NCBI GenBank assembly: GCA_005878095.1
Contig: VBNH01000052.1
Coordinates: 1-34,847 of the forward strand
Source: Gammaproteobacteria bacterium
Lineage (GTDB): Bacteria > Pseudomonadota > Gammaproteobacteria > Steroidobacterales > Steroidobacteraceae
Length of the DNA stretch: 34,847 nucleotides
Reading direction: 5' to 3'
Part shown: positions 1,511-26,700 of the stretch, one piece after another
Position numbering within the stretch: position 1 is the stretch's first letter
Layout: each line of letters begins with the position of its first letter
Translations under genes and position numbers: made by a program
Notes under the pieces: model-generated
Told to the model about the DNA's origin: nothing
Seen by the model: only the letters and a program-made list of their open reading frames with translations
Databases searched by the model: none

Positions 1511-1768
1511 TTAGCGCGGAGATTTGCGGCGCCGGGATGCCAGACTGCGGGCCCAAGCACGGACCTCGGCATGGTCGATGGTCGTACCACCATCGACTTC
1601 GGCGAGCGCGGCCAAGGTCTGCCGATGACGCTCTTCATCGAGGGCAAGGTAGCCCTCGATCGCCTCCTTGACGACCCAGCCCCGCGGACGCTCGAGGCGC
1701 TCGGCGAGGCTGTCTAGCTTGCGGGCGAGCTGATCCGGAATGTGGGCGGTCACGACGCGATTGCGCAT
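1511..1768 (-). CDS. parD: Ribbon-helix-helix (CopG/ParD-type) antitoxin
   Basis: An 85-aa protein beginning MRNRVVTAHIPDQLARKLD, the usual ribbon-helix-helix pattern of a beta strand with alternating polar residues followed by helix 1. ERPRGWVVKEAIEGYL then forms helix 2. The C-terminal half (EVDGGTTIDHAEVRAWARSL) resembles the toxin-wrapping tail of such antitoxins. It precedes the ParE-like toxin by 4 nt, the canonical antitoxin-first order. The ATG at 1768 lies just after an 11-bp-arm palindrome (1771-1793), which is a plausible autoregulatory operator. A TATACT hexamer on the same strand near 1798-1803 could be its -10 box. Confidence 0.83.
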   Translation of the reverse strand: MRNRVVTAHIPDQLARKLDSLAERLERPRGWVVKEAIEGYLALDEERHRQTLAALAEVDGGTTIDHAEVRAWARSLASRRRKSPR

Positions 1769-1770
1769 TT

Positions 1771-1793
1771 AATCATTCTGATTCAGATTGATT
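1771..1793. promoter_or_regulatory. Palindromic operator of the ParDE-type pair
   Basis: Two 11-bp arms (1771-1781 and 1783-1793) form an inverted repeat with a 1-nt spacer and a single mismatch. The repeat starts 3 bp upstream of the antitoxin ATG and overlaps the presumed promoter/leader. Ribbon-helix-helix antitoxins usually bind such a site as dimers to repress their own operon. The palindrome is seen; its use as an operator is inferred. Confidence 0.6.
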
Positions 1794-1959
1794 AAGAAGT
1801 ATACTGCCCCTCAATGCGAAAGTGCCAGATTCAGTTTGGGGTACGGCATGGGGTATCGGTAACGGAGCGACCCGGGAAGTCCCTTACAAACCAGCCACTT
1901 ACGCGCGACCTCGATCCCCTTCCGCTCCACCATCCCCTGCTACCGGTCCCCCGTGGCCG

Positions 1960-2730
1960 CTAGGCGATGAGGTCCCGGTAAGCATGCCAGGTCGCATAGC
2001 CGAGCAGCGGCGCGACAATCACCATGCCGACCAGCAGGGTGACGAAACCCAACACGGTGAGTGCGACGATGAGCACCGCCCACACGAGCATCGCCGGCAG
2101 GTTGGTCAGGGTAGCGCGCACACTGGCGCGGATGGCGTCGGAGGCGCTGGCGTGCCGGTCGATGATCAGCGGCACGGCTACGACCGACATCAGAAAAACA
2201 ATGACCGCGAGCACGGCGCCGCATCCCACGTAGCCCAGGATCTGTGCCGTGTCCACATTCGTCGATCCTCCCCACAGCGCCACCGCGAGACTCGGCACCG
2301 AGACATTGAGCACCGACTGCAGCAGCAAGGCGGACAGGACAAACCACGCGAGCGCGATGAGCGCCAGCACGCCCCCGAAGTGCATGAGGGCGTCCGGGTT
2401 GCGCGTCAGTCCCTGCAGCGACTCATCAAAACCCAACGGCTCGCGCGCCGCGCGCCGTCGCGCGAGTTCGCACAGCCCCGTGGTCATGACCGGCCCGACG
2501 AGCAGATAGCCGGTGACGGCGGCTGCGGTGAGGTACAGGTGGGTGCTGCCGAGCATCAGCAGAACTGCTCCCAGAATGGCTATCAGCGCCCCGTGGGCGA
2601 GGCCGGCCCGGCCGATCAGTTTCAGATCCTCCCACCCGCGGCTCAGCCACTCGAGAGGTTGCCACAGGGGCACGTGACGGATGTCGAGCGGCACGCTCGC
2701 AGGCTTCGCGACGCTGACGGACGTGGTCAT
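1960..2730 (-). CDS. DUF2189 family integral membrane protein
   Basis: A 256-aa protein with about six hydrophobic segments (roughly residues 45-75, 75-95, 120-145, 165-190, 215-235 and 235-250). The N-terminal WQPLEWLSRGWEDLKLIGR region and the closing YATWHAYRDLI match DUF2189, a family of inner-membrane proteins of unknown function, some annotated as cytochrome c oxidase subunit I-related. The start has a good Shine-Dalgarno (AGGAGA) 7-8 nt before the ATG. It appears to be a single-gene transcription unit, transcribed away from the tRNA gene. No function is assigned. Confidence 0.85.
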   Translation of the reverse strand: MTTSVSVAKPASVPLDIRHVPLWQPLEWLSRGWEDLKLIGRAGLAHGALIAILGAVLLMLGSTHLYLTAAAVTGYLLVGPVMTTGLCELARRRAAREPLGFDESLQGLTRNPDALMHFGGVLALIALAWFVLSALLLQSVLNVSVPSLAVALWGGSTNVDTAQILGYVGCGAVLAVIVFLMSVVAVPLIIDRHASASDAIRASVRATLTNLPAMLVWAVLIVALTVLGFVTLLVGMVIVAPLLGYATWHAYRDLIA

Positions 2731-2838
2731 AAAGGTCTCCTGCCACCCAGCCCGAGCCGAGTGCTCGTCTGCATAGTACGCTTCCGCCCGCGCCAGGGAT
2801 GGTGGCCGCGGGTGGCACGCCGGTACACTTAGCGTCGT

Positions 2839-2914
2839 GCCCCCGTAGCTCAGTGGATAGAGCGACCGCCTCCTAAGCGGTAGGTCGTCGGTTCAACTCC
2901 GGCCGGGGGCGCCA
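2839..2914 (+). tRNA. tRNA-Arg(CCT)
   Basis: A complete cloverleaf is visible. Acceptor 5' strand GCCCCCG (2839-2845) pairs with CGGGGGC (2905-2911 region), followed by a discriminator base and an encoded CCA. The D arm contains GCTC...GAGC. The anticodon stem ACCGC/GCGGT encloses loop CTCCTAA with anticodon CCT, which reads AGG. The T arm is GTCGG-TTCAACT-CCGGC. A TACACT hexamer at 2824-2829 is a possible -10 element. Its 3' end is the insertion site of the downstream element and remains intact, because the element restores the sequence. Confidence 0.95.
2892..2912 (+). repeat. attL core (3' end of tRNA-Arg)
   Basis: A 21-bp segment covering the tRNA T loop, T-stem 3' strand and acceptor 3' strand. 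It is repeated exactly at 12176-12196. The tRNA 3' end is the standard attachment core for P4-type tyrosine recombinases, one of which starts about 150 bp downstream. Confidence 0.88.
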
Positions 2915-3031
2915 CCGCCTCATCTCACCGCGTATCGCCCGGACTCACTGAGTCTCACGAAGTTCTGTAAAAATAGGTATTCCGTGAGAAATCTGCTGCT
3001 CACGAACGCTCAGCGCATAACGGCCAAAAAC

Positions 3032-3089
3032 GACGGGTACGGAAACCAAGACGGGTACAATGACGGGTACAGAGAACCCCGACGGGTAC
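3032..3089 (+). repeat. Four GACGGGTAC repeats, probable integrase arm sites
   Basis: GACGGGTAC occurs exactly at 3032-3040, 3050-3058, 3062-3070 and 3081-3089, all in the same orientation. They lie about 120-200 bp inside attL and overlap the integrase start. Related CGGGTAC/TGGGTAC copies lie just inside attR. Directly repeated short motifs flanking the core are what tyrosine recombinase N-terminal domains bind; that role is inferred. The overlap with the integrase start could also allow autoregulation. Confidence 0.6.
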
Positions 3090-4301
3090 GCATTGACCGC
3101 CACCGATTTTCTGACCGAGGCGCGTCTTCGAAGCGCCAGACCCAAGGCCCGGCCTTACAAGCTTCGGGACGGAGGCGGGCTCTACCTTCTCGTCACTCCT
3201 TCAGGCGCAAAGCAGTGGAGGCTTCGGTACACGCTTGAAGGCCGCGAATCGATGGTCAGCTTGGGCACATACCCTGCCACCTCGCTCAAGGCCGCACGCG
3301 CTAAGCGTGCCGGCATGCAGACCGCACTCGAGTCCGGCCGGGACCCAGCCGCGGAACGGCGGGCCGAGCGCGCCAGCAGCGCCAATACGTTTGAATCGAT
3401 CGCGCGGGAATGGCTCGGGAAGCAGCCGTTCGCGCCGAAGACGATGAAGAAGGCAGTGTGGACATTCGAGGATCTGCTCTTCCCGTATATAGGCTCGCGG
3501 CCCGTCTCGGCGCTGACGGCGCCCGAGCTCCTCGGAGTGTTCCGCAGGCTTGAGCGCCGCGGCAAGCACGAAACGGCACACCGAGCCAAGCAGCGCGTGG
3601 GCCAAGTGGTTCGCTACGCGATCGCAACCGGACGGGCGGAGCGCGACCCCACGGCCGATCTTCGGGGCGCCCTGGCTCCGGTGGTCGTGACGAATCGCGC
3701 AGCGATTACGGACCCGCGCGAGGTGGCGCAGCTCCTCCGGGCTCTGCACGGCTACCGTGGGCACCCGGTGGTCGAGGCTGCATTGAAGCTCGCTCCTCTG
3801 GTCTTCGTTCGCCCCGGCGAGCTTCGCGCCGCAGAGTGGGCCGAGATCGATCTGGACGCGGCTGAATGGCGGATCGCGGCCCATCGCATGAAGATGCGCC
3901 AGCAGCACCTCGTGCCCCTGGCGCGCCAGGCCGTGGCCCTTCTCCGCGACATCAAGCCACTAACGGGAAGAGGGCGCTATGTTTTCCCGTCTCCGCGGAG
4001 CGCCGAGCGGCCGCTGAGCGATAACGCCATCACCGCCGCCCTGCGCCGGATGGGTTACACGGGCGATCAGATGAGCTGGCATGGATTCCGCGCGATGGCG
4101 TCGACGCTGCTCAATGAGACGGGCTATCCGCCCGACGTCATCGAGCTGCAGCTTGCCCACCAGGAGCGCAACGAGGTGCGGGCGGCGTACAACCGGGCTC
4201 AGCGGCTCGAGGAGCGTCGGAAGATGATGCAATCCTGGGCTGACTATCTGGACGGATTGCGACTAGGCAATGCCGTCGTGCCATTTCGGCGCTCCGCTTA
4301 G
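3060..4301 (+). CDS. int: P4-type tyrosine recombinase (integrase)
   Basis: A 413-aa site-specific recombinase expected to integrate and excise the element at tRNA-Arg. The N-terminal DUF4102 arm-binding domain is seen as RPYKLRDGGGLYLLV (about residues 32-46), followed by a SAM-like core-binding region (about 110-200) and the catalytic domain. Catalytic residues are visible: Arg in FVRPGELRAAEW, His-x-x-Arg in SWHGFRAMAS, His in LAHQERNEV and the nucleophilic Tyr in AAYNRAQRL. Length fits the family. The ATG at 3060 lies among the arm-type repeats, and a TTG at 3093 is an alternative start. It reads away from the tRNA, the usual arrangement for elements of this type. Confidence 0.93.
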   Translation: MTGTENPDGYALTATDFLTEARLRSARPKARPYKLRDGGGLYLLVTPSGAKQWRLRYTLEGRESMVSLGTYPATSLKAARAKRAGMQTALESGRDPAAERRAERASSANTFESIAREWLGKQPFAPKTMKKAVWTFEDLLFPYIGSRPVSALTAPELLGVFRRLERRGKHETAHRAKQRVGQVVRYAIATGRAERDPTADLRGALAPVVVTNRAAITDPREVAQLLRALHGYRGHPVVEAALKLAPLVFVRPGELRAAEWAEIDLDAAEWRIAAHRMKMRQQHLVPLARQAVALLRDIKPLTGRGRYVFPSPRSAERPLSDNAITAALRRMGYTGDQMSWHGFRAMASTLLNETGYPPDVIELQLAHQERNEVRAAYNRAQRLEERRKMMQSWADYLDGLRLGNAVVPFRRSA

Positions 4302-4678: not shown

Positions 4679-5155
4679 ATGACGGCCACAAGCTGCAACA
4701 GAATTCTCGGAATCCGTACGGCACCTCAACAGGTTCGGTACGCGTTGGTAGACGTAGATGGCGCGGCTTTTACACTTGTGAATCGATCTGCAGAGACTCT
4801 TCTCCGAAGACCAGCTGCATGTGAAGACACCCCAAGCCACTTACTTTGGGTCCACGCTGAGGTCGCCCGAATAATGCGCCAGAATCCAACCGTCGGAGTC
4901 GTGGCGATCAAGGTACCGGAGTTCGTCGGTACTCAAACTTCATCCTCTAGGCTCGGCAACTATTTAGATGCTGCGGTCCAGCTCGCCGCGGTGCAAGCGG
5001 ACAAAGTCGTCGTTGCGCGGCTTTACGGTCAGATGGCCACTCGGCGAGCGGACGTTAAGCGAGACGCGGAGCAGCGAGTCGGACGGACGGAGACGAATTG
5101 GGATGAGCAGATGGCGGACGCCGTCGCGGTCACTTGGGCCGCTGCTAAACTATGA
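4679..5155 (+). CDS. RNase H/RuvC-fold protein coupled to a kinase
   Basis: A 158-aa soluble protein whose pattern suggests an RNase H/RuvC-like (DUF3010-like) fold. The first strand is ILGIRTAPQQVRYALVDVDG (residues 9-28), a central strand is VGVVAIKVP (72-80), a helix is LGNYLDAAVQLA (92-103), and the C-terminal helix has MADAVAVTWAAA (145-156), resembling the ADALAVA element of RuvC. Against RuvC, the first Asp (GLDPG) is replaced by Arg13 and the second acidic residue by Lys78; Asp147 remains. Classical two-metal nuclease activity is therefore doubtful. Its stop overlaps the kinase start (ATGA), so the two are translationally coupled. No symbol is known to me. The fold call is an inference from motif pattern; operon membership is clear. 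Confidence 0.6.
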   Translation: MTATSCNRILGIRTAPQQVRYALVDVDGAAFTLVNRSAETLLRRPAACEDTPSHLLWVHAEVARIMRQNPTVGVVAIKVPEFVGTQTSSSRLGNYLDAAVQLAAVQADKVVVARLYGQMATRRADVKRDAEQRVGRTETNWDEQMADAVAVTWAAAKL

Positions 5156-6207
5156 CGACGCTGTCGCCAGGCGATCGCCTCTACAAATACGAGCTTGAAC
5201 GTAAGATCGGCGGTGGTCATTTTGGTGAAGTATGGCTGGCGCAGGACCTGGTGGTAAGTCGGCAGCTTGCCGTGAAGATTCTCGACGAGAGCATGGCTCC
5301 AGTCGCGGCAAGCCTTGATGAAGCGCGCCTCGGAAACAAATTGAATCACGGCAATGTCGTTCGAATTCACTACGCGGACGTGATTGCTCACGCCGGCGGC
5401 AAGCTGGTGGTGATCGCCATGGATCACCACGCCAAGGGTTCTATTCAGTCCCTGTTGAATGCAGGGAAGTTTCTAAACGCGCCGACTGCCGTGGCCGTCG
5501 TAGTCGACGTTCTTCGAGGGTTGGAGTACCTGCACGAACAGAACTTCCTGCACAACGACATCAAGCCGTCCAATATTCTCATTGGCGATGATTCGCGTGC
5601 GCTTCTCACCGACTACGGGATTTCTCGCGTGTTAGGCCCCTCCGGCTCCGCGACGTCAACGGTCGCATATACTCTGCATCGAGCACCTGAAACGACTGCG
5701 AGTGATCTCACATCTGTGCAGAGTGACATCTACCAGGTTGGCATGACTCTTTTGCGGCTTGTCAACGGCGTAGAGACACTGGAGAAACGCAGAGCTGCGC
5801 TGGGAGCGGTAGCATTCGAGCGCCTTAAGTCAACGGGTAGGCTTCTTGAGTTCGCTCTATTTGTGGATGCTCGTCTGAAGCGAGTGATTGTAAAAGCCAC
5901 TGCGGCAGCGCCTGCCAAACGTTTTCACAGTGCCCTGGAAATGCGGCGAGCCCTAGAGCGGATTCGATTTAAGGGCTACTGGGACGCCGACCCATCGGGG
6001 GACCTCTTCGGGATCGAAGGGTCGAACAAATTCACTTTTACGGTACGGTCAACAGGAAGTAATCATGAGATGCAGGCGTACCGGGAAAACCTGAAGTCGC
6101 GCCGGAAGACCAAGGTCTCGCGACACTGCCACAAAGGTCTGTCCGAAGCCCAACTCTCCGTAATGCAAAAGAAGTTGATGACTGACGTCATTAAGGGAGA
6201 GTTGTGA
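5152..6207 (+). CDS. Hanks-type Ser/Thr protein kinase with novel C-terminal region
   Basis: A 351-aa protein. Residues about 10-255 form a complete eukaryotic-like kinase domain: glycine loop IGGGHFGEV (19-27), ATP-anchoring Lys42 in LAVKIL, alpha-C Glu57, catalytic loop HNDIKPSN (134-141, Asp136 present, HND in place of HRD), DYG (154-156) in place of DFG, APE (178-180) and helix-F Asp192 in SDIYQVG. All essential residues are kept, so activity is likely. The HRD arginine is lost, suggesting control independent of activation-loop phosphorylation. Residues about 255-351 form a basic region (SRRKTKVSRHCHKG) that I cannot assign. There is no transmembrane segment or PASTA repeat, so it is cytoplasmic. 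It is coupled by ATGA overlap to the RNase H-fold gene. Substrate unknown. Confidence 0.88.
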   Translation: MTTLSPGDRLYKYELERKIGGGHFGEVWLAQDLVVSRQLAVKILDESMAPVAASLDEARLGNKLNHGNVVRIHYADVIAHAGGKLVVIAMDHHAKGSIQSLLNAGKFLNAPTAVAVVVDVLRGLEYLHEQNFLHNDIKPSNILIGDDSRALLTDYGISRVLGPSGSATSTVAYTLHRAPETTASDLTSVQSDIYQVGMTLLRLVNGVETLEKRRAALGAVAFERLKSTGRLLEFALFVDARLKRVIVKATAAAPAKRFHSALEMRRALERIRFKGYWDADPSGDLFGIEGSNKFTFTVRSTGSNHEMQAYRENLKSRRKTKVSRHCHKGLSEAQLSVMQKKLMTDVIKGEL

Positions 6208-6372: not shown

Positions 6373-6609
6373 TCACGGTGTGCGGCGTTGTGTGTCTCCG
6401 CTCGGGCCTGGTGGTGCTGCTCTATGCGGCGTGCACCGCGCGACCGGCCGCGAGTCGGCCCAGCCTTCAACATCAGACTCAAGCCATGCCACGGAGTTCT
6501 TGCTTAGCTGGCGCCGCTTGGGGAACCTCCCCGCGAGCTCGAGTCGATAGATCGTCATCCGCGACAGCCCGGTGAGCTGCATCACGTGGCGAATGCGAAG
6601 AAATCTCAT
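6373..6609 (-). CDS. alpA: AlpA-family DNA-binding regulator/excisionase
   Basis: A 78-aa protein with the AlpA/MerR-like winged helix: MRFLRIRHVMQLTGLSRMTIYRLELAGRFPKRRQL-type start and SVAWLESDVEGWADSR. AlpA proteins activate integrase transcription or act as recombination directionality factors in P4-like elements. The ATG at 6609 has a good GAGGGA ribosome-binding site about 6 nt upstream and gives a typical length; the much longer open frame upstream is not AlpA-like and is probably non-coding. The C-terminal tail from about residue 55 is Pro/Arg-rich and unconserved. The gene is divergent from mobC, with the oriT candidate between them. Confidence 0.85.
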   Translation of the reverse strand: MRFLRIRHVMQLTGLSRMTIYRLELAGRFPKRRQLSKNSVAWLESDVEGWADSRPVARCTPHRAAPPGPSGDTQRRTP

Positions 6610-6829
6610 GGCGCGTCCCTCATAGGATCTCGGGCGGAGTTGAGACCGGTGCTCATAGTGTTCTTCGCGGAGCAGCAGGTAACGCTCCGTATCGAGCGAA
6701 GTTACCTCCTTGCGCAGGTTGCACGACAACGAGAGCTGCAACCGCCTGCAACATTGAACGAGGTGATACGCGCCGGGATGTTGCACACTCGATCGTTGGC
6801 CGAGGCCGTTCAGAGCGAGTCGGAGAGAC

Positions 6830-6943
6830 TTACAACCGGAGGCGGTAGACGGAGAACAACGGTCCACCGTGCACGCGGGACGGCACTTGTTCACCGGTGC
6901 CGACAAAACCCAGACGTGAATAGAATCCCTCGGCAGGCGGATC
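6830..6943 (-). pseudogene. C-terminal remnant of a GNAT acetyltransferase
   Basis: The minus-strand frame here reads AEGFYSRLGFVGTGEQVP then GGPLFSVYRLRL before a stop. This is the typical end of a GCN5-related N-acetyltransferase (FYxxLGF, then a final beta strand). I cannot find the acetyl-CoA-binding motif in any minus frame upstream, and the open frame turns non-GNAT-like before 6943. It is therefore most likely a decayed fragment, not a gene. Confidence is limited by the short match. Confidence 0.45.
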
Positions 6944-7037
6944 GGGCAAGCTGCGCTGCCGCCGGTGACGCTGTTGAACGGCGCTTTCGAGAACACCACA
7001 CCTGCAACGTGTGGGTCGGTGTCGTTGCGGGTGACAT

Positions 7038-7062
7038 GCAGGATTGGCAAAGTGACTTTGCC
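7038..7062 (-). other. oriT: Candidate origin of transfer (oriT) with nic site
   Basis: On the minus strand an inverted repeat with 8-bp arms (GGCAAAGT/ACTTTGCC; 7055-7062 and 7046-7053, 1-nt spacer) is followed after one base by ATCCTGC (7044-7038). This matches the RP4-type nic core YATCCTGY except at its first base, and the repeat-then-nic layout is that of MOBP relaxase substrates. The predicted nick lies between 7039 and 7038. Transfer 5'-to-3' from there would move the AlpA, kinase and integrase side first and the mob genes last, the usual polarity. It lies 18 bp upstream of mobC. Confidence 0.6.
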
Positions 7063-7079
7063 GTTTAACAATCACACCC

Positions 7080-7631
7080 GTGACCAAGGATGCTTTCATC
7101 GCGTGTCGCGTAACTCCTGAGACGAAGGCACGAATGCGTGCGCTCGCACAGCGCGAAGGGATCGCCGAGTCAGCACTCATCAAGCAGCTGCTTGATGTAG
7201 TGCTTCGCGCGTCGGCGCACGGGACGCTGCCGGCACCCGAGGCGCCGCAGAGCGTGAGCGGCGACGCACGGTTCAACGTTCGACTTGGGCCGGAGATCTC
7301 GAGGCTCCTCAGGGAGCGCGCGAAGGGCAGGGGCACGCCCTCGGCCACTTACATTGCGTCCCTTGTCCGCGCCCACTTTCTGGACGCCGCGCCGCTACCC
7401 AAGGCGGAGTACGTGGCGATCAAGCAGGCGGTGGGGGAGCTCTCCGCCATCGGGCGGAACCTCAACCAAATCGCGCGGGCGATCAACCAGGGTGGGAGAC
7501 CCGCCCCGCCTGGGGGAGAAGACGTCATGGCCATGCTGAAGGTCGCCGAGGCCTTGAGGGATCACATCAAGGCGTTAGTGAGCGCGAACACGCGCGCCTG
7601 GGGGACAGGACATGCCCAGAAACCTCATTAA
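7080..7631 (+). CDS. mobC: MobC-family relaxosome accessory protein
   Basis: A 183-aa protein with an N-terminal ribbon-helix-helix-like segment (FIACRVTPETKARMRALA, about residues 6-23), a second similar segment (ARFNVRLGPEISRLLRERA, about 62-80) and a C-terminal MobC signature (VGELSAIGRNLNQIARAINQGG, about 120-141). MobC proteins bind near oriT and help open the nic region for the relaxase. The start is GTG at 7080, just downstream of the oriT candidate. The end overlaps the relaxase start by 20 nt, indicating translational coupling. Confidence 0.86.
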   Translation: MTKDAFIACRVTPETKARMRALAQREGIAESALIKQLLDVVLRASAHGTLPAPEAPQSVSGDARFNVRLGPEISRLLRERAKGRGTPSATYIASLVRAHFLDAAPLPKAEYVAIKQAVGELSAIGRNLNQIARAINQGGRPAPPGGEDVMAMLKVAEALRDHIKALVSANTRAWGTGHAQKPH

Positions 7632-8745
7632 CGTCGGACCCCGCCCGTGGCTCGACATCGGCTCTTATGGCCGCTGGGGACCCGAGCGTCGCGATCGGTT
7701 GTCGCCGGCGCAGATTGCCACCATCGCCCGCACGGTGGCTCGGACTCCGGAGGTCATGATCAAGATGCTGAACCAGGGAGGGACGAGCCTCGGGGCTGTC
7801 CGCCGTCACATCAACTACCTGGACCGAGGCGGGAGGCTGGAGATCGAGACCGATGACGGTGAGCCTCTCAAGGGCAGAGGGGCGGCTATGGCGCTCCTCA
7901 GTGATTGGGATCTCGATATGGACGAGGAGCGGCCCACAGCGGATCTGAAGCCCTGGTGGGAGAACAAGAAGACTCCGAAGCTGGTTCAGAAGATCCTCTT
8001 CTCGATGCCGGCGGGGACCCCGCCAAAGAAGGTCCTGGCGGCGGTCAAGAATTTCGCCCGGGAGGAATTTGGCGCCAAGCACCGCTACGCCATGGTGCTG
8101 CACACCGATGAGCCCCATCCGCACGTGCACATGGTGGTCCGGGCGATGGGCTTCGACGGCCGGCGGCTGAACATCCGGAAAGACACGCTGCGGGGGTGGC
8201 GGCGGGAATTTGCCCGGCACCTGCGGGAGCAGGGCGTGGCGGCCAACGCGACGGATCGCCAGGTCCGTGGCGAGGTCAAGCCACAGAAGACCGACGGTAT
8301 CCACAGAGCGGCGATGCGGGGCGCTTCTACCCACCGGAGGCAACGGGCGGCAGCGGTTGCGCACGAGATGGCCACGGGCGGAGAGATCAAGGTCGAAGCG
8401 GGGAAGGCTCAGATGCTTCAGACGCGGCGTGAAGTCGTGCGGGGTTGGACCGAGGCTGCCGACAATCTGGTGCTCCAGGGTCAGGTGGAGCTTGCGCAGG
8501 CCGTGAGGGGTTTTGTGAAGCATTTGCCACCGGTACGCACAGAACGCGAATGGATCCGGGAGGAGCTCCTCCAACAAGCCACGGCGGAGCGCCATCGAGC
8601 CGTGGCCACTTGGCGGGCGTTCCGCGCACAGCAACAGGGAGCGGCGGAGCAGGCCAGACAGCCCGAACAGGATCGTGCGCGGGAGCGTAACCTCGAGCGA
8701 TCGCCCGGGCGTTCACGTGATCATGGCCATGACCGCGCGCGATGA
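7612..8745 (+). CDS. mobA: Relaxase/mobilization nuclease (VirD2-like, probably MOBP)
   Basis: A 377-aa relaxase expected to nick oriT, stay covalently bound to the 5' end and pilot the strand to the recipient. The metal-binding HUH motif is visible as HTDEPHPHVHMVV (residues 164-176). Tyr69 in RRHINYLDRGG is the probable catalytic tyrosine, followed by a region shared with related mobilization nucleases (LEIETDDGEPLKGRG). The C-terminal third is Arg/Gln-rich, probably coiled or unstructured, and may contact the coupling protein. It starts inside the end of mobC. The MOBP assignment agrees with the nic-like ATCCTGC upstream. Family is confident; exact subclass less so. Confidence 0.88.
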   Translation: MPRNLINVGPRPWLDIGSYGRWGPERRDRLSPAQIATIARTVARTPEVMIKMLNQGGTSLGAVRRHINYLDRGGRLEIETDDGEPLKGRGAAMALLSDWDLDMDEERPTADLKPWWENKKTPKLVQKILFSMPAGTPPKKVLAAVKNFAREEFGAKHRYAMVLHTDEPHPHVHMVVRAMGFDGRRLNIRKDTLRGWRREFARHLREQGVAANATDRQVRGEVKPQKTDGIHRAAMRGASTHRRQRAAAVAHEMATGGEIKVEAGKAQMLQTRREVVRGWTEAADNLVLQGQVELAQAVRGFVKHLPPVRTEREWIREELLQQATAERHRAVATWRAFRAQQQGAAEQARQPEQDRARERNLERSPGRSRDHGHDRAR

Positions 8746-8799
8746 GCTGCATCCAATACCAGACTCAACAGGTCCGATGTGTTCATGGACGGAGAAAGC

Positions 8800-9276
8800 G
8801 TGAAGCTCGGGCTGCTGATGGAGACCGCCCAGAGCCATCAGAAGATCCTCGAAGCGCTCTTCGAGAAGCTGAAAGAGCACACTCAGGGGCTGGATGCAGT
8901 GGTGAGAGATCAAATCCGCCACGTGTTAGTCGAGGAGTTGAAAGCCGTACGAGCGGAGACTCAAGGTGCGGTCGTGGCCCTGCAGGCCTTGAAGCGGGCG
9001 GCCAATGCCCGTGGGACGTTCTGGACACTCGGTGCCACCGCGATCGCCGCGGCGATCGCACTCTTCGTTGCGTGGCGGGTCTTGCCGACGCCGGCGGAGA
9101 TCACCGCGTTACGCACCGAGCGCGACACGCTCGCGAGCAACATTGCGGCCCTCAATCAGCGCGGTGCACGGGCAGATTTGCGTCGCTGCGGGACCGGGCA
9201 CCTGTGTGTTCGTGTGGACCTCAAAGCGCCCCGGTACGGCGAGAGTTACGACTACCTGGTAATCAGCGGGTACTGA
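8800..9276 (+). CDS. Mobilization-associated single-TM protein
   Basis: A 158-aa protein with an N-terminal helical, probably coiled-coil region (LLMETAQSHQKILEALFEKL, then LDAVVRDQIRHVLVEELKAV). One transmembrane segment follows at about residues 70-90 (TLGATAIAAAIALFVAW), then a C-terminal domain with two cysteines (RRCGTGHLCVRVD). Similar small membrane proteins follow relaxase genes on mobilizable plasmids, where they may link the relaxosome to the membrane; the role is inferred from position. The GTG at 8800 is chosen for the GGAGAA ribosome-binding site 4-5 nt upstream; ATG 8785 and GTG 8779 are in-frame alternatives. The 254 bp after it (9277-9530) show no gene. Confidence 0.7.
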   Translation: MKLGLLMETAQSHQKILEALFEKLKEHTQGLDAVVRDQIRHVLVEELKAVRAETQGAVVALQALKRAANARGTFWTLGATAIAAAIALFVAWRVLPTPAEITALRTERDTLASNIAALNQRGARADLRRCGTGHLCVRVDLKAPRYGESYDYLVISGY

Positions 9277-9530: not shown

Positions 9531-10064
9531 CTATTGCGCTCCACTGGGGCCAAAGCTGCGGATCGTGTCAGGAGACAAATTCAGTCTGCGCGGTAAGTAG
9601 TGATCGAGGAGAACCGTCTTAGGGTGTGCCGGATTGTCTTTGAGGAGTTGTAGCGCTCGTCGGTATAGCTCCGGGTAAGCAGTGCCCCACCCGCAGAAGT
9701 CCGCGATCAGCACTTCCATACCCAAGAGCACAGTTGCGAGATGCCACCATGCCGCGCGTACGACCTTTCCACACCATATCGCGGCAAGCACACCGGCGGC
9801 GGCACCGATGAGCATCCACCATGTCACCGTGACGGCTAGCACGAGACAAACTGCTGCGACTGCCCATGCCGCGATCTGGTACCTGAAATGGGAGGACACC
9901 ACCTGCAATGCCTCGAACGTATCCGACATGCACGAGAGCGCCACCATGTGCTCGCCCGTTACAATCTTTGCCGGGAGCCCACGGAGTCCGTGTGTCTTGT
10001 GCGTCATCCGAACAAGCCCGCCGCATTTCTTCATTAGGTTCTCCGGCAGGAAGTTTGGATCCAT
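9531..10064 (-). CDS. Hypothetical two-TM membrane protein
   Basis: A 177-aa protein with a hydrophilic N-terminus of about 60 residues and two close transmembrane segments: AAWAVAAVCLVLAVTVTWWMLIGAAAGVLAA as a hairpin (about 64-95), possibly with a third near VLLGMEVLIADF. A hydrophilic C-terminus follows (about 125-177, with YPELYRRALQLLKDN). Translation is well supported by GGAGGAA five to six nt before the ATG. I do not recognise a family. It lies on the minus strand next to the cassette region of the mobile element. No attC flanks it, so it does not look like a cassette itself. The membrane hairpin with soluble flanks would suit an effector or entry-exclusion protein, but nothing shows this. 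Confidence 0.6.
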   Translation of the reverse strand: MDPNFLPENLMKKCGGLVRMTHKTHGLRGLPAKIVTGEHMVALSCMSDTFEALQVVSSHFRYQIAAWAVAAVCLVLAVTVTWWMLIGAAAGVLAAIWCGKVVRAAWWHLATVLLGMEVLIADFCGWGTAYPELYRRALQLLKDNPAHPKTVLLDHYLPRRLNLSPDTIRSFGPSGAQ

Positions 10065-10231
10065 TAGATTCCTCCGTCATTGCCGAGTGCTCAGGACCAT
10101 CGCTTACACGCAGTCAGCGTTCATTGCAACGACGGAACGGAGCGCTGCGATCTGGCCTGCCCGGTAGGGAGTGAACAACACGCCGCGGCCGCTCCTGGAC
10201 CCACTCCCGCACAGAGAAGGACGCGGAACTG

Positions 10232-10420
10232 TCATAAACCGCTCGACAGGAACGTCACCTTGCCGAATAGCCAATGACTTACTAACTGCAGCAAACACAC
10301 CGCCAGCAGCCCAATCGCGAGGATCCCGGTGTTGACCAGCAGCCGCTGCATCGCGTCCGCGACAGACTTTGACGGCACTCTAAGGTTTCGATATACCCAC
10401 ACGATAGGTAGAAACGACAC
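10232..10420 (-). CDS. Small two-helix membrane protein
   Basis: A 62-aa frame from GTG 10420. The open frame extends upstream to about 10456, and the added residues (SVLLLITAIVSFLPIVWVY) complete a first transmembrane segment. The second is ILAIGLLAVCLLQLVSHWLFG. The true start is unclear because no ATG, GTG or TTG precedes the first hydrophobic stretch, so the 5' end may have been lost at the junction with the DUF4926 stop codon (10457-10459). It may be a truncated gene. Function unknown. Confidence 0.4.
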   Translation of the reverse strand: MSFLPIVWVYRNLRVPSKSVADAMQRLLVNTGILAIGLLAVCLLQLVSHWLFGKVTFLSSGL

Positions 10421-10456
10421 GATCGCTGTTATGAGCAGCAGGACGCTCGTCAGCGA

Positions 10457-10687
10457 TTAGGCCGCGTCTAGCTGACGAACCGCAAGGAGATCTCGTGACC
10501 CGACAGGACGCAGCTGGTCAGTACCAAGCGTGACGACAGCCTGCGTGTGCCCAGAAGCGGTTACAAACTCAACCTCAACCGCTTCGGCCGAGTACACCTG
10601 CACCACAGCACCGACGTCTCCGCGTTTCAAGCCGTGGCTTGGCAGGTCAGTCGTAACAACCACCGTGTCGAGAATCTTGAAGGGCAT
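10457..10687 (-). CDS. DUF4926 domain protein
   Basis: A 76-aa protein with the DUF4926 pattern: ILDTVVVTTDLPSHGLKRGDVGAVVQVY, then VEVEFVTASGHTQAVVTLG. It is a small all-beta domain. DUF4926 genes often neighbour DUF6883 genes, as here, where its ATG follows the DUF6883 stop by 2 nt. The arrangement resembles a toxin-antitoxin or effector-immunity pair, but neither role is established and this is inference. The stop codon lies in GGCCTAA, which also resembles the expected R'' end of this cassette's attC. Confidence 0.72.
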   Translation of the reverse strand: MPFKILDTVVVTTDLPSHGLKRGDVGAVVQVYSAEAVEVEFVTASGHTQAVVTLGTDQLRPVGSRDLLAVRQLDAA

Positions 10688-10689
10688 GG

Positions 10690-11019
10690 CTATTCTTCGG
10701 GGTATGCAGTTACAAATCGAGGAGCCTTCTCCCCGACCAGTATAATCCAGATGCTCACGATTCCCGCGGAGCGCCCATTCGGGCCCGAAAGAGCGCCCCG
10801 GACAGTGAATTTTTGACCATATTTCGTGACGCCGGAGGGCTGGGCCTCATAGGAGAGGACCGCCCGCAAATCGCGTTCGAGCACCTGCCACTGCTCGGGC
10901 GCGTAGCCGAGCGATCGGAAGAACGTGCTCTTGTAGCGTCCGATCGGATGAGCTGAAGACAGCAGGTAATCGCGCAGCTTGTCAGCGGAAACGATAGCGG
11001 CGGCTGCGTCGAGGAACAT
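10690..11019 (-). CDS. DUF6883 domain protein
   Basis: A 109-aa protein matching the DUF6883 pattern: KLRDYLLSSAHPIGRYKSTFF (about residues 14-34), GYAPEQWQVLERDL, GQKFTVRGALSGPNGRSA and a closing WIILVGEKAPRFVTAYP. The conserved HPxGxxKxxFF and PRxVTAYP motifs are kept, so it should be functional. It is the first gene of an integron-cassette-like unit that begins at the R' of the attC at 11054-11178. It is followed immediately by the DUF4926 gene. Function unknown; a pairwise toxin-antitoxin-like role is inferred only from the repeated association of the two domains. Confidence 0.7.
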   Translation of the reverse strand: MFLDAAAAIVSADKLRDYLLSSAHPIGRYKSTFFRSLGYAPEQWQVLERDLRAVLSYEAQPSGVTKYGQKFTVRGALSGPNGRSAGIVSIWIILVGEKAPRFVTAYPEE

Positions 11020-11053
11020 GATGGAGCCAATCGTAACAGCGGCGCTACCCGTG

Positions 11054-11178
11054 GCCTAACGGTGAAGCTGAGCGGCCGGCCGACGCCGCCTGACAAGCGC
11101 CGCGGGCGCACACTGTCTTCCAGCGCCCGCGGCGCCAAACCACTTACGCATCACGGCCCGCTCCAGCGATTGTTAGCC
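11054..11178 (-). other. attC: Integron attC recombination site (between cassettes 2 and 3)
   Basis: A 125-bp site. Read on the minus strand: R'' GGCTAAC (11178-11172), L'' CTGGAGCGGGCCG (11166-11154), a hairpin with 13-bp perfect arms (11123-11135 and 11097-11109) and 13-nt loop, L' CGGCCGCTCAG (11078-11068), R' GTTAGGC (11060-11054). L'' and L' pair except for two unpaired G bases in L'', the extrahelical bases that set strand choice in true attC sites. R'' is complementary to the start of its own cassette (GTTAGCC at 11531). Confidence 0.82.
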
Positions 11179-11180
11179 GC

Positions 11181-11498
11181 CTAGCGCACAAGAGACTGCA
11201 TACCCTCATTCGTTATGGCTATCTGAGCTTGACGGGCTGTAGCCGATACCCAGGATCTGAGGGATTGATCAAACACTGCATCGCCCCACCAGTGATCTCC
11301 ATCGGAGCACTCGACACACAGCAGTCCCTTCTCTATTAGTCCGTTGACCGTTTCAACAAACGCAGTGGGGATATGTCCGGTGTCGCTTGGTCGTACTCCC
11401 AGGGTGTTGAGCACAGTTGCGAGGGATTCGGCACCCGCCTCTTCCAAAAGACGAAGTAGCCCGTTTTGCCGAGGCGATAGCTTAACCTTACGTGGCAT
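11181..11498 (-). CDS. Cassette-encoded hypothetical protein (winged-helix-like)
   Basis: A 105-aa protein beginning MPRKVKLSPRQNGLLRLLEE. The N-terminal pattern (RQNGLLRLLEEAGAESLATVLNTLGV, then FVETVNGLIEKGLLCVE) resembles a winged helix, with the final TARQAQIAITNEGMQSLV also common in such domains. The match is by pattern only. The ATG at 11498 is chosen because the cassette begins at about 11530, which rules out most of the longer open frame (to 11582) that runs into the attC. Its stop is 2 nt before the R'' of the next attC. It is the only gene of cassette 2. Confidence 0.55.
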   Translation of the reverse strand: MPRKVKLSPRQNGLLRLLEEAGAESLATVLNTLGVRPSDTGHIPTAFVETVNGLIEKGLLCVECSDGDHWWGDAVFDQSLRSWVSATARQAQIAITNEGMQSLVR

Positions 11499-11524
11499 GT
11501 TGGCACCGCGCTGGCCAGACAGTC

Positions 11525-11649
11525 GGCTAACGGTGAAGTTGAACGGCCGCGAAGAAGCGCCGGATCCGCGCCGCGGGCGCACACTGTCTTCTAGCGCCCG
11601 CGGCGCCCAACCACCTGCGCATCACGGCCCGTTCCAACGTTGGTTAGAG
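11525..11649 (-). other. attC: Integron attC recombination site (between cassettes 1 and 2)
   Basis: A 125-bp site with the same architecture as the one at 11054. On the minus strand: R'' CTCTAAC (11649-11643), L'' TTGGAACGGGCCG (11637-11625), hairpin arms 11594-11606 and 11568-11580 (13 bp, perfect), L' CGGCCGTTCAA (11549-11539), R' GTTAGCC (11531-11525). Two G bases of L'' are extrahelical. The 13 bp leading into R'' (top strand 11643-11655) are perfectly complementary to the first 13 bp of cassette 1 (11982-11994), as expected for a cassette that circularised. Confidence 0.84.
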
Positions 11650-11659
11650 GACGCCCGCA

Positions 11660-11965
11660 TCAGTCACCCACAAAGTGGAGATAAAGGTGGGAGCCTGACT
11701 CAACCCGCTCCGCCATCGGAATCAAAGCGTCAATGAGCGCACGAGTACGATCGTCAAGCCTGGGCCGGATGCCGGCGAGTTCGCCGAGAAGTACTGGAGC
11801 CTGCAGATAGTTGAACACCGTGTCTCCATATGGGTCCACGAACCGCAGGCATACCGTTCCCGACAGGTCGAAGTGACGCAGGAGTTTGGGGACTAGCCCC
11901 AACGGGTCCAAACAGGAGTCAAGCGTCTCGCCAGACTCTGAGCGGAGGTAGACATTAATACCCAT
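11660..11965 (-). CDS. Cassette-encoded hypothetical protein
   Basis: A 101-aa acidic protein beginning MGINVYLRSESGETLDSCLDP, with a strand-rich N-terminal half (GTVCLRFVDPYGDTVFNYLQ) and a helical C-terminal half (LDDRTRALIDALIPMAERVES, ending HLYLHFVGD). No signal peptide, membrane segment or recognisable family. It is the only gene of cassette 1, whose R' starts at 11994, and it ends about 10 bp before the R'' of that cassette's attC. Many integron cassette products are such small single-domain proteins of unknown role. Confidence 0.6.
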   Translation of the reverse strand: MGINVYLRSESGETLDSCLDPLGLVPKLLRHFDLSGTVCLRFVDPYGDTVFNYLQAPVLLGELAGIRPRLDDRTRALIDALIPMAERVESGSHLYLHFVGD

Positions 11966-12101
11966 ACCACTGCGCGTCTAAGGCGTCCTCTAACTGTAAT
12001 TCGACGACAAAATGCTACAGCGCGAGGCTGGGATCGAAACGGGATACACGCGTTCAATGGCCGCCCGCATACGTCCAATGTACCTGCGCGCTCGAGGCCG
12101 T

Positions 12102-12119
12102 GGGTACAGTCGCGGGTAC
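12102..12119 (+). repeat. GGGTAC repeats inside attR, probable arm sites
   Basis: GGGTAC occurs at 12102-12107 and 12114-12119, the second within CGCGGGTAC. This resembles the four GACGGGTAC copies near attL and has the same orientation. They lie 57-74 bp inside attR. The pairing of similar repeats at both element ends supports an integrase arm-site role, though the match here is shorter. Confidence 0.45.
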
Positions 12120-12175
12120 GGGTGGCACGCCGAGGTTAGGAAAATACTGGTGATTCAGATCGTTAGCGTCTGCTA

Positions 12176-12196
12176 TTCAACTCCGGCCGGGGGCGC
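12176..12196 (+). repeat. attR core (copy of tRNA-Arg 3' end)
   Basis: An exact 21-bp copy of 2892-2912 that lacks the rest of the tRNA gene. It marks the distal boundary of the element. Beyond it, chromosomal sequence resumes and the first gene is the MgtE-N/CBS protein, which ends at 12253. Confidence 0.88.
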
Positions 12197-12252
12197 TAGC
12201 CACCAAAATACCACGCTGCGGCCACGCGCACGATGCGACGCGCGGCAGAGCA

Positions 12253-13506
12253 TCACGCGAGCCGCGGCCTGAGACCGCGCATGTCGCGCGACGACACCGC
12301 GCCGAGCAGATGATGGTTCTCGTCCGTGATGGGCAGCGCGCGGAAATTGTAACGCTCGAAAAGCATCACCGCCTCCCGCAGCGTCGCATCCTTCGGCAGC
12401 GCGATCACGTGCTCGGTCATGATGTCTCCGAGGCTCTGCCCCGGCTCCGCGGCGACGATTCCCCGCAGATCGACCACCCCTTTCAACGTGCCCGCGGCGT
12501 CGGTGACGTAGACGTAGGTCACGACGTTCTTGCCGGTCGCTAGCTCGCGATAGCGATCAAGTACCTCTGCGGCCGGCGTCGTCGCCGGCAGTCTGATGAG
12601 CTCGGGCGACGCATACAGCAGTATCTGCTCGTCGTGCTGTCCGATGATGTGCTCGACCCTGGAGGACTTGTCCCGGTCGATCAGCTTCAGGATCGCGTCG
12701 GCCTCATCGCGAGGCAGAATGGCCAGAATGTCGGCGGCCTGCGCGGGACTCATCTCGTTGATCAGCATCGCCGCGCGCTCCTTCTCGATGGCATGTATCA
12801 ATTCCCGCTGTACCCGTGGTTCGACCTCTTCGAGCGTGTCGGATGCCTGTTCGGCGTCGAGCGCGTTGAACAGCGCTACGCGTTGACCACCCTCGAGTTC
12901 CTCCAGAATGTCCGCCAGATCCACCGGATGGATCTCGCGTAGATCCGCCTTGGGGACCTTGAGCTTGATACTGCCGGCGAAGCTACCCAGCTGCGCGGAA
13001 AGCGGCTGCACATAGAGCCAGGACACGCGGTCCTCCTTGTTACGGTCGGCCATGAGCTTTGCGAGCTTGTGAAGACCCAGCCGACGCAGGGCTCGGTAGC
13101 GGCTGAAGTCGACCTCGGCCGCGTACAACTTACCGTTCTGGAAGGCGAGCTTGACGTCGTAGACGACCTCGACCTCGTGGTCGTCCAGATCGAGAATCTT
13201 CTTGTCGAGTATGTGATCGTGCAGCAGGATCGCGTTCTCCTGGGGTGCCCGCTCGAATTGCGCCAGTTCCTCCTCACCCATGTCGAGCACGACCTCGTGA
13301 TTGGAGATGAGGAGTACCTTGTCCCAGGGAATCGTCAGCGCCGGGTACCCATAGGGCCGCGCGACACTCACGTGCGTGACTTCGGGAAGCTTTCCGGTCT
13401 CGACGATCGCCAGATCGCTCAAGCGCCCGATGCGATGTGTTCTCGCAAACACCCGCCGGCCGAGAATCTCACTCAGGAAGAATTCGGACTCAAGCACGGT
13501 CACCAC
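12253..13506 (-). CDS. PRC-barrel/MgtE-N/CBS domain protein without a channel domain
   Basis: A 417-aa soluble protein. Residues about 10-150 resemble two PRC-barrel segments (SEILGRRVFARTHRIGRLSDLAI; VEVVYDVKLAFQNGKLYAAEVDFSRYRALRRLG). About 190-285 is an MgtE intracellular N-domain (IHPVDLADILEELEGGQRVALFNALDAEQASDTLEE-like helices). About 290-415 is a CBS pair (PATTPAAEVLDRYREL; VIALPKDATLREAVMLFERYNFRALPI). No transmembrane part follows, so it is a sensor or regulatory module and not an MgtE channel. It is the last gene of a minus-strand operon behind an Nramp-like transporter, where it probably senses Mg2+ or nucleotides and controls transport. Function is inferred. Confidence 0.88.
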   Translation of the reverse strand: MVTVLESEFFLSEILGRRVFARTHRIGRLSDLAIVETGKLPEVTHVSVARPYGYPALTIPWDKVLLISNHEVVLDMGEEELAQFERAPQENAILLHDHILDKKILDLDDHEVEVVYDVKLAFQNGKLYAAEVDFSRYRALRRLGLHKLAKLMADRNKEDRVSWLYVQPLSAQLGSFAGSIKLKVPKADLREIHPVDLADILEELEGGQRVALFNALDAEQASDTLEEVEPRVQRELIHAIEKERAAMLINEMSPAQAADILAILPRDEADAILKLIDRDKSSRVEHIIGQHDEQILLYASPELIRLPATTPAAEVLDRYRELATGKNVVTYVYVTDAAGTLKGVVDLRGIVAAEPGQSLGDIMTEHVIALPKDATLREAVMLFERYNFRALPITDENHHLLGAVSSRDMRGLRPRLA

Positions 13507-26193: not shown

Positions 26194-26700
26194 GTGCTGG
26201 GGCTCGACCCCGGTTCGCGGCGCACCGGCTTTGGCGTGATCGAGTGCCGCGGCGGTGAGCTCATTGCGGTCGCGCACGGCTGTCTCAACCTGGCCGCCGC
26301 GGCGCCCGCGGCGCGTCTGCGCATGATCTTCGAGGGTCTGCGGGCACTGATGTCCCAACACCAACCGGCGGAGGTGGCGGTGGAGCGCGTGTTCGTCAGC
26401 CGCAACGCCGACAGCGCCTTGAAGCTCGGGCAGGCACGCGGCGCGGCGCTGTGCGCCATCCCCGAGGCCGTGCCGGTGTTTGAATACGCGCCGCGCGCCA
26501 TCAAGCTGGCGGTGGTGGGCTCCGGAGCCGCGGAAAAGTTCCAGGTGGCGCATATGATCCGCACGCTGCTCGGGCTCGCCGAACGCCCGGGCGCAGACGC
26601 GGCGGATGCGCTCGCGGTGGCCGTGTGCCACGCGCACGCGCGCCGGCTCGGCACGCTGGCACAGCAAGGCGGCGCGCGCCTGAGGCACGCCGGGCGATGA
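26194..26700 (+). CDS. ruvC: Holliday-junction endonuclease RuvC
   Basis: Resolves Holliday junctions by paired nicking, together with RuvAB. The four RuvC acidic residues are seen: Asp in GLDPGSRRTGFGVIE, Glu in VAVERVFVSRN, and the two Asp residues of the C-terminal GADAADALAVAVCHA. GTG 26194 gives 168 aa, close to the family norm. An ATG at 26116 in the same frame would add 26 non-conserved residues and overlap yebC. No clear ribosome-binding site favours either start. It overlaps ruvA by ATGA. Confidence 0.92.
   Translation: MLGLDPGSRRTGFGVIECRGGELIAVAHGCLNLAAAAPAARLRMIFEGLRALMSQHQPAEVAVERVFVSRNADSALKLGQARGAALCAIPEAVPVFEYAPRAIKLAVVGSGAAEKFQVAHMIRTLLGLAERPGADAADALAVAVCHAHARRLGTLAQQGGARLRHAGR

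Follow-up and report, generated by a model that had tools for sequence, protein, structure and literature searches.

A small RuvC-like gene coupled to a phage Stk-type kinase gene on a mobilizable element: a probable two-gene phage-exclusion cassette

A 34,847-nucleotide contig from a gammaproteobacterium of the Steroidobacteraceae (VBNH01000052.1, assembly GCA_005878095.1; here the window) carries two overlapping genes that probably form a phage-exclusion (abortive-infection) cassette, with an Stk-type kinase as effector and a RuvC homologue as gate; we put the probability of this reading at roughly 60%. Within the pair, the kinase is the probable effector, and the small RuvC-fold protein is probably a non-cleaving partner, sensor or adaptor. 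Because the kinase is distantly related to Stk, the system cannot be called entirely new; we regard the pair as a stand-alone variant in which the RuvC-like partner appears to be the overlooked half. The comparison shows that Stk has a fixed partner, two of whose catalytic acids are replaced by basic residues in 44 of 44 distinct homologues, and it joins restriction operons, a mobilizable element and a prophage gene in one family. The evidence suggests an under-recognised two-part system against invading phages, and the pair offers a direct test of infection recognition by a bacterial kinase.

Table 1. Features of the gene pair and the surrounding element (positions in the window)
Feature	Position	Strand	Remarks
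tRNA-Arg(CCT)	2839..2914		ARAGORN
Left attachment repeat, 21 bp	2892..2912	+	inside 3' part of tRNA-Arg (2839-2914)
Tyrosine integrase	3060..4301	+	PF00589, PF22022, PF13356
Small RuvC-fold gene	4679..5155	+	158 aa; probably non-cleaving partner, sensor or adaptor
ATGA overlap	5152..5155	+	start of kinase gene and stop of small gene
Kinase gene, phage Stk type	5152..6207	+	351 aa; probable effector
ORF with AlpA-type regulator	6373..7071	-	PF05930 E 7.7e-18; HTH residues 155-204
NikA/MobC-like mobilisation protein	7080..7631	+	PF21983, PF05713
MobA/VirD2-like relaxase	7612..8745	+	PF03432 E 2e-13
Right attachment repeat, 21 bp	12176..12196	+	exact copy of left repeat

The two plus-strand ORFs overlapping by ATGA, from which the initial annotation set out, are present (Table 1), and the same 4-base overlap with a Met start occurs in loci L003, L009, L011 and L013; the start of the small gene is unsure in L010 and L013, where an ATG is absent at the usual place. 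Both ORFs are real genes, since homologues of the pair keep the same order in Pseudomonadota and Bacteroidota. Identity to the eight relatives of the window branch is 29–43% for the small protein and 37–42% for the kinase; the proteins of the distant locus L007 are 25% and 24% identical, respectively, to the window copies.

The small gene on its own, or an alignment built from it, served as query in the search for loci. This gave three plasmid records (the same three in a second search), six genome loci and a distant pair in genome G704, through which five plasmid records, 14 phage records and 51 viral contigs were reached; sequence was taken from two of the three and all five plasmid records and from two of the 14 phage records. 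In each of the 68 loci whose RuvC-like gene is intact (the window, L002, L003, L008-L013, L014, L016-L022 and L027-L077), a kinase gene directly follows; many of these loci are close copies from coliphages, and the set is not independent. The genes are thus coupled, as had been claimed, and in this search via the small gene they were not found apart. Among phage records, the small gene and a kinase match spanning 80% or more of the query pick out one and the same set of 14; 12 of them are near-identical coliphages, among which two pairs are the same phage. L007 and L014 are one place, and a second Methylocystis plasmid record (NZ_CP044332.1) lies outside the locus set. Residue counts are based on 44 small proteins and 42 kinases, after identical sequences had been merged and kinases no longer than 300 residues removed. 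Dropped before counting were L001, L005 and L025, which are copies of counted loci, L004, the first viral match and a chance one, and L026, which matched at E 5.6e-4 over about half the profile and in which no reference gene matched at 1e-5.

The pair recurs in unrelated elements (plasmids, phages and restriction operons), as the initial annotation had envisaged. The window's own small gene matched three plasmid records and none from phages, and a window-branch query (A3) matched none of 170 viral-contig stretches, the window branch not being credibly present in viral contigs. Among 196 relatives the pair was found in the window's own genome only; samples of the class and the phylum yielded one further genome each (of 369 and 398), and the class of G939 no new credible member among 289 genomes. 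By match counts, 223 of 5,426 complete E. coli genomes match the phage-branch pair, and in 221 of these 80% or more of the pair is present.

The small protein is predicted to adopt an RNase H fold of the RuvC kind, in agreement with the fold first proposed for it. Its profile matched Deinococcus radiodurans RuvC at E 4.3e-4, and the family aligned with 31 RuvC sequences in hhalign at E 5.2e-6 with a probability of 86%. The small proteins of the phage branch are 13–24% identical to that of the window and matched it at E 2e-7 (probability 93.6%); the phage-branch profile alone gave no RuvC match in the PDB up to E 10, all of its 12 matches lying at E 0.18 or worse. Of the RuvC/DUF3010-like pattern described initially, the RuvC relationship stood and DUF3010 membership fell: its Pfam profile gave no match at E values up to 1, a range in which the HMMER filters remove most matches above 0.1. 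Neither did PADLOC or NCBIfam hold a model matching the small protein up to E 1, so that the two-gene unit escapes those catalogues.

The acidic catalytic residues of RuvC are D7, E66, D138 and D141 in E. coli numbering. Profile alignment places Arg13 and Lys78 of the window protein at the first two of these positions, confirming the replacement of two acidic ligands noted at the outset; position 13 is Arg in all 44 distinct homologues and position 78 is Lys or Arg in all 44. At a further RuvC acid position the window protein has Gln144, and position 144 is non-acidic in all nine window-branch small proteins; Asp147 is kept. Among genuine RuvC proteins used as a control, the four catalytic positions are acidic in 30/30, 31/31, 28/28 and 28/28 sequences (gaps of 1, 0, 3 and 3 left out), and the host's genuine RuvC, encoded at 26194–26631 of the same window and also used as a control, has its acids. 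The family shares fold and sequence homology with the RuvC resolvases (Pfam PF02075; phrog_3875 for the phage branch) but differs from them in having a basic residue for each of the first two acids. The small protein probably still binds branched DNA or recombination proteins but without cutting.

As described initially, the kinase keeps its catalytic residues with HND and DYG motifs. Its kinase domain spans approximately residues 8–272, and all 42 distinct homologues retain K42, E57, H134, D136, K138, N141, D154 and G156. DYG is found in all nine window-branch kinases and HND in eight (HGD in L008), whereas in the phage branch the motifs are HFD (31 of 33) and DFG (33 of 33). The window kinase is 21–27% identical to the phage-branch kinases compared, which it matches in hhalign at E 2.9e-52 over 316 columns. 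Structure matches cover mainly residues 7–275; residues 275–348 are predicted to form a compact beta-rich domain ending in a helix, and this C-terminus alone matched the C-terminal domain of Stk at E 8.5e-6 and a probability of 83%, controls giving 0.2–0.4%.

Other defence kinases share the kinase domain. PADLOC profiles matched the window kinase at E 8.9e-41 and weaker over approximately residues 10–272 (PD-T4-6 test; profiles without a displayed cut-off), whereas NCBIfam scores were far below cut-off (MAD6, 116 of 460 bits; PglW, 28 of 990). The domain is common to PD-T4-6, MAD6 of MADS and PglW of BREX, but their matches hardly cover the C-terminus of the window kinase. Because profiles for the kinase domain of other defence kinases (mad6, PD-T4-6) reach almost the same scores, the specific link to Stk rests on the C-terminal domain, a modest match at 83%, together with the partner. 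PD-T4-6 is a stand-alone gene and MADS comprises the full mad gene set with MAD6; to our knowledge, neither these systems nor BREX has a RuvC-like partner. Membership in MADS was not supported: the kinase scored far below the MAD6 cut-off, five further ORFs of the element had no mad match and the AlpA ORF had only a weak mad1 match (E 2.1e-5).

In phage phi24B the pair is located between cI and OL, and the annotation of this region notes similarity to 933W; the phi24B record names the kinase stk, and the RuvC-like gene is the unannotated ORF just before it. The 933W record was absent from our matches. Elsewhere the pair lies behind a LexA-type repressor in a Providencia prophage, and in an E. 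coli plasmid record that also has replication genes of the lambda type it follows an HTH regulator; it is also found on Klebsiella and Mesorhizobium plasmids and in SPbeta-like Bacillus phages (L022, 5986–7538), where both genes are annotated as hypothetical. A repressor like one of two references was present in the fetched stretch of 29 of 51 viral loci (two repressor types tried). Across records the small gene is left unannotated or labelled 'hypothetical protein', 'RuvC family protein' or 'RuvC-like Holliday junction resolvase'. The window kinase has the same layout as Stk of 933W, phi24B and other lambdoid phages, the C-terminal domain included; in both, a RuvC-like gene lies just before the kinase gene, overlapping or abutting it, and both are cargo of mobile elements. 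In addition to its motifs and low identity, the window pair differs in lying on a tRNA-Arg mobilizable element and not beside cI or another phage repressor.

The upstream RuvC-like gene as a feature of Stk was found in this analysis and is not a published criterion. In their passages on Stk, two papers give it a role in HK97 exclusion and activation on infection, and name it as an exclusion factor on its own (PMC3681748, PMC6356687), and the words 'stk' and 'kinase' are absent from a paper on expressed genes of phi24B (PMC3342100). Among the matches listed in a search mostly outside subscription papers, we found no paper describing the pair. The initial statement that no named system has this pair consequently holds for the two-gene unit, uncaught by PADLOC and NCBIfam, but not for the kinase half, which belongs with the described Stk of 933W-like phages.

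Type I restriction operons house the pair in six of the nine window-branch loci (L002, L003, L008, L009, L011 and L012, from Methylocystis, Novosphingobium, Sinorhizobium and others), mostly between hsdS and hsdR, and this placement bears out the expectation that the pair recurs near defence genes. Four of the six operons have the order hsdS-hsdM-hsdS-small gene-kinase-hsdR-SprT protease, and in three of these a GIY-YIG/DUF4357 gene follows hsdM, which is the PADLOC candidate PDC-S14 in L009. Further neighbours include an AbiEii gene beside the pair in L008 and, behind the kinase, a DUF4917 gene (PADLOC PDC-S21, with a weak SIR2-like match) that occurs within the operon of L009 and without an operon in L010 and is a possible third component. 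The GIY-YIG/DUF4357 genes lie between hsdM and hsdS at 9909–10859 (L003), 7879–8847 (L009) and 2618–3583 (L011), the DUF4917 genes at 11532–12614 (L009) and 11529–12611 (L010), with a broken piece in L013 from 11529; the SprT-like protease gene lies behind hsdR in pair-holding operons. In the Bacteroidetes operon of L012, an AlbA_2/HATPase gene between kinase and hsdR (1756–3468) resembles short-Argonaute associated PADLOC models (E 8.5e-12).

The operon position, together with a decayed small gene behind the end of hsdS in G506, is what would be expected if the pair were a control module of type I restriction that tunes HsdR or protects the host from self-cleavage, the window copy being an operon orphan. 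The G506 remnant had no kinase match in a 12-kb stretch, of which only about 1.8 kb lies downstream. We consider such a module quite unlikely, since the window pair stands alone: hsdR, hsdM and hsdS queries gave no match in the window (tblastn, 1e-3), and remnant operon parts near the pair were rejected on the same result. Nor were hsd genes found in the stretches fetched for any of the 51 viral loci, which reach at most 4 kb to either side, or within 10 kb of L010 and L013; two queries of the window's own genome were also empty, an answer that is uninformative there. A role in element housekeeping, the RuvC-like protein binding junctions during transfer or excision of the element under regulation by the kinase, would suit the RuvC fold and the integrating, mobilizable element but is very improbable, given that restriction operons, phages and other kinds of plasmids carry the same pair and that the first two catalytic acids are lost throughout the family.

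The pair might instead be a toxin-antitoxin module serving mainly to maintain mobile elements, with the kinase as a growth-stopping toxin and the RuvC-like protein as antitoxin. That the first gene is small, overlaps the gene for a larger enzyme and sits on mobile elements is in keeping with this, as are four of the 68 loci (L020, L027, L039 and L045) in which the small gene is intact and the kinase frame is broken within approximately the first hundred codons, a state expected if only the kinase is costly. We nevertheless judge such a module unlikely: a kinase without its partner was found in none of 14 phage records and, with the kinase C-terminus as query, in none of three plasmids (a case under-sampled because loci were found through the small gene), and a place inside type I restriction operons or beside phage repressors fits defence better. 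The early breaks may reflect switching, selection against the kinase or sequencing error. The affected copies, at 8456 (L020), 4462 (L027), 2607 (L039) and 4456 (L045), all belong to the phage branch, and in L020, L039 and L045 the frame is broken near lysine-rich (A-rich) codons.

In a phage-exclusion cassette of the Stk type, the kinase would be quiet in healthy cells; an invading phage would trigger it, and the triggered kinase would phosphorylate cell proteins so that the infected cell is stopped. The RuvC homologue would most likely gate the kinase through the kinase's C-terminal domain. By inference, phages are excluded by the window copy and its two proteins interact; as to the trigger, the RuvC homologue may report phage recombination or replication intermediates, or the recombinase itself. 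Friedman and colleagues in 2011 reportedly named orf41 as the HK97 trigger of Stk. In the HK97 record, gp41, numbered by counting from Gp40 to Gp43, is the erf gene, and its product is an Erf annealing recombinase of the ERF superfamily (PF04404, E 2.1e-44), which would suit a RuvC-derived sensor. A dead Holliday-junction protein beside a kinase said to be set off by a recombinase hints that the small protein reads phage recombination. More tentatively, a resolvase, with basic residues where its metal-binding acids were, may have become a protein that reads recombination intermediates, or the recombinase, without cutting and switches the kinase on, as phosphorylation-based immunity portable across prophages, type I restriction operons and mobilizable elements; HK97 Erf would then be one natural trigger.

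In the window, the pair is cargo of a 9.3-kb mobilizable element, as first proposed: it sits between the integrase and AlpA ORFs, with a NikA/MobC-like protein and a relaxase encoded beyond them and 21-bp repeats on either flank (Table 1). The repeat copies are 9,284 bp apart, and the ends of the element are well supported because the tRNA-Arg 3' repeat recurs exactly on the right. The true start of the AlpA-type ORF is probably further in, and Pfam matches in the window to FimV_N, Homoserine_dh and Flavi_capsid were under their cut-offs and set aside. Two 126-nt repeats (11051–11176 and 11522–11647), 471 bp apart and with CTAAC / GTTAG ends on the minus strand, lie around small minus-strand ORFs at 10690–11019 (DUF6883), 11181–11582 and 11660–11965. 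These repeats resemble integron attC sites, and with the small ORFs they are perhaps a cassette array without an integrase, lodged within the mobilizable element.
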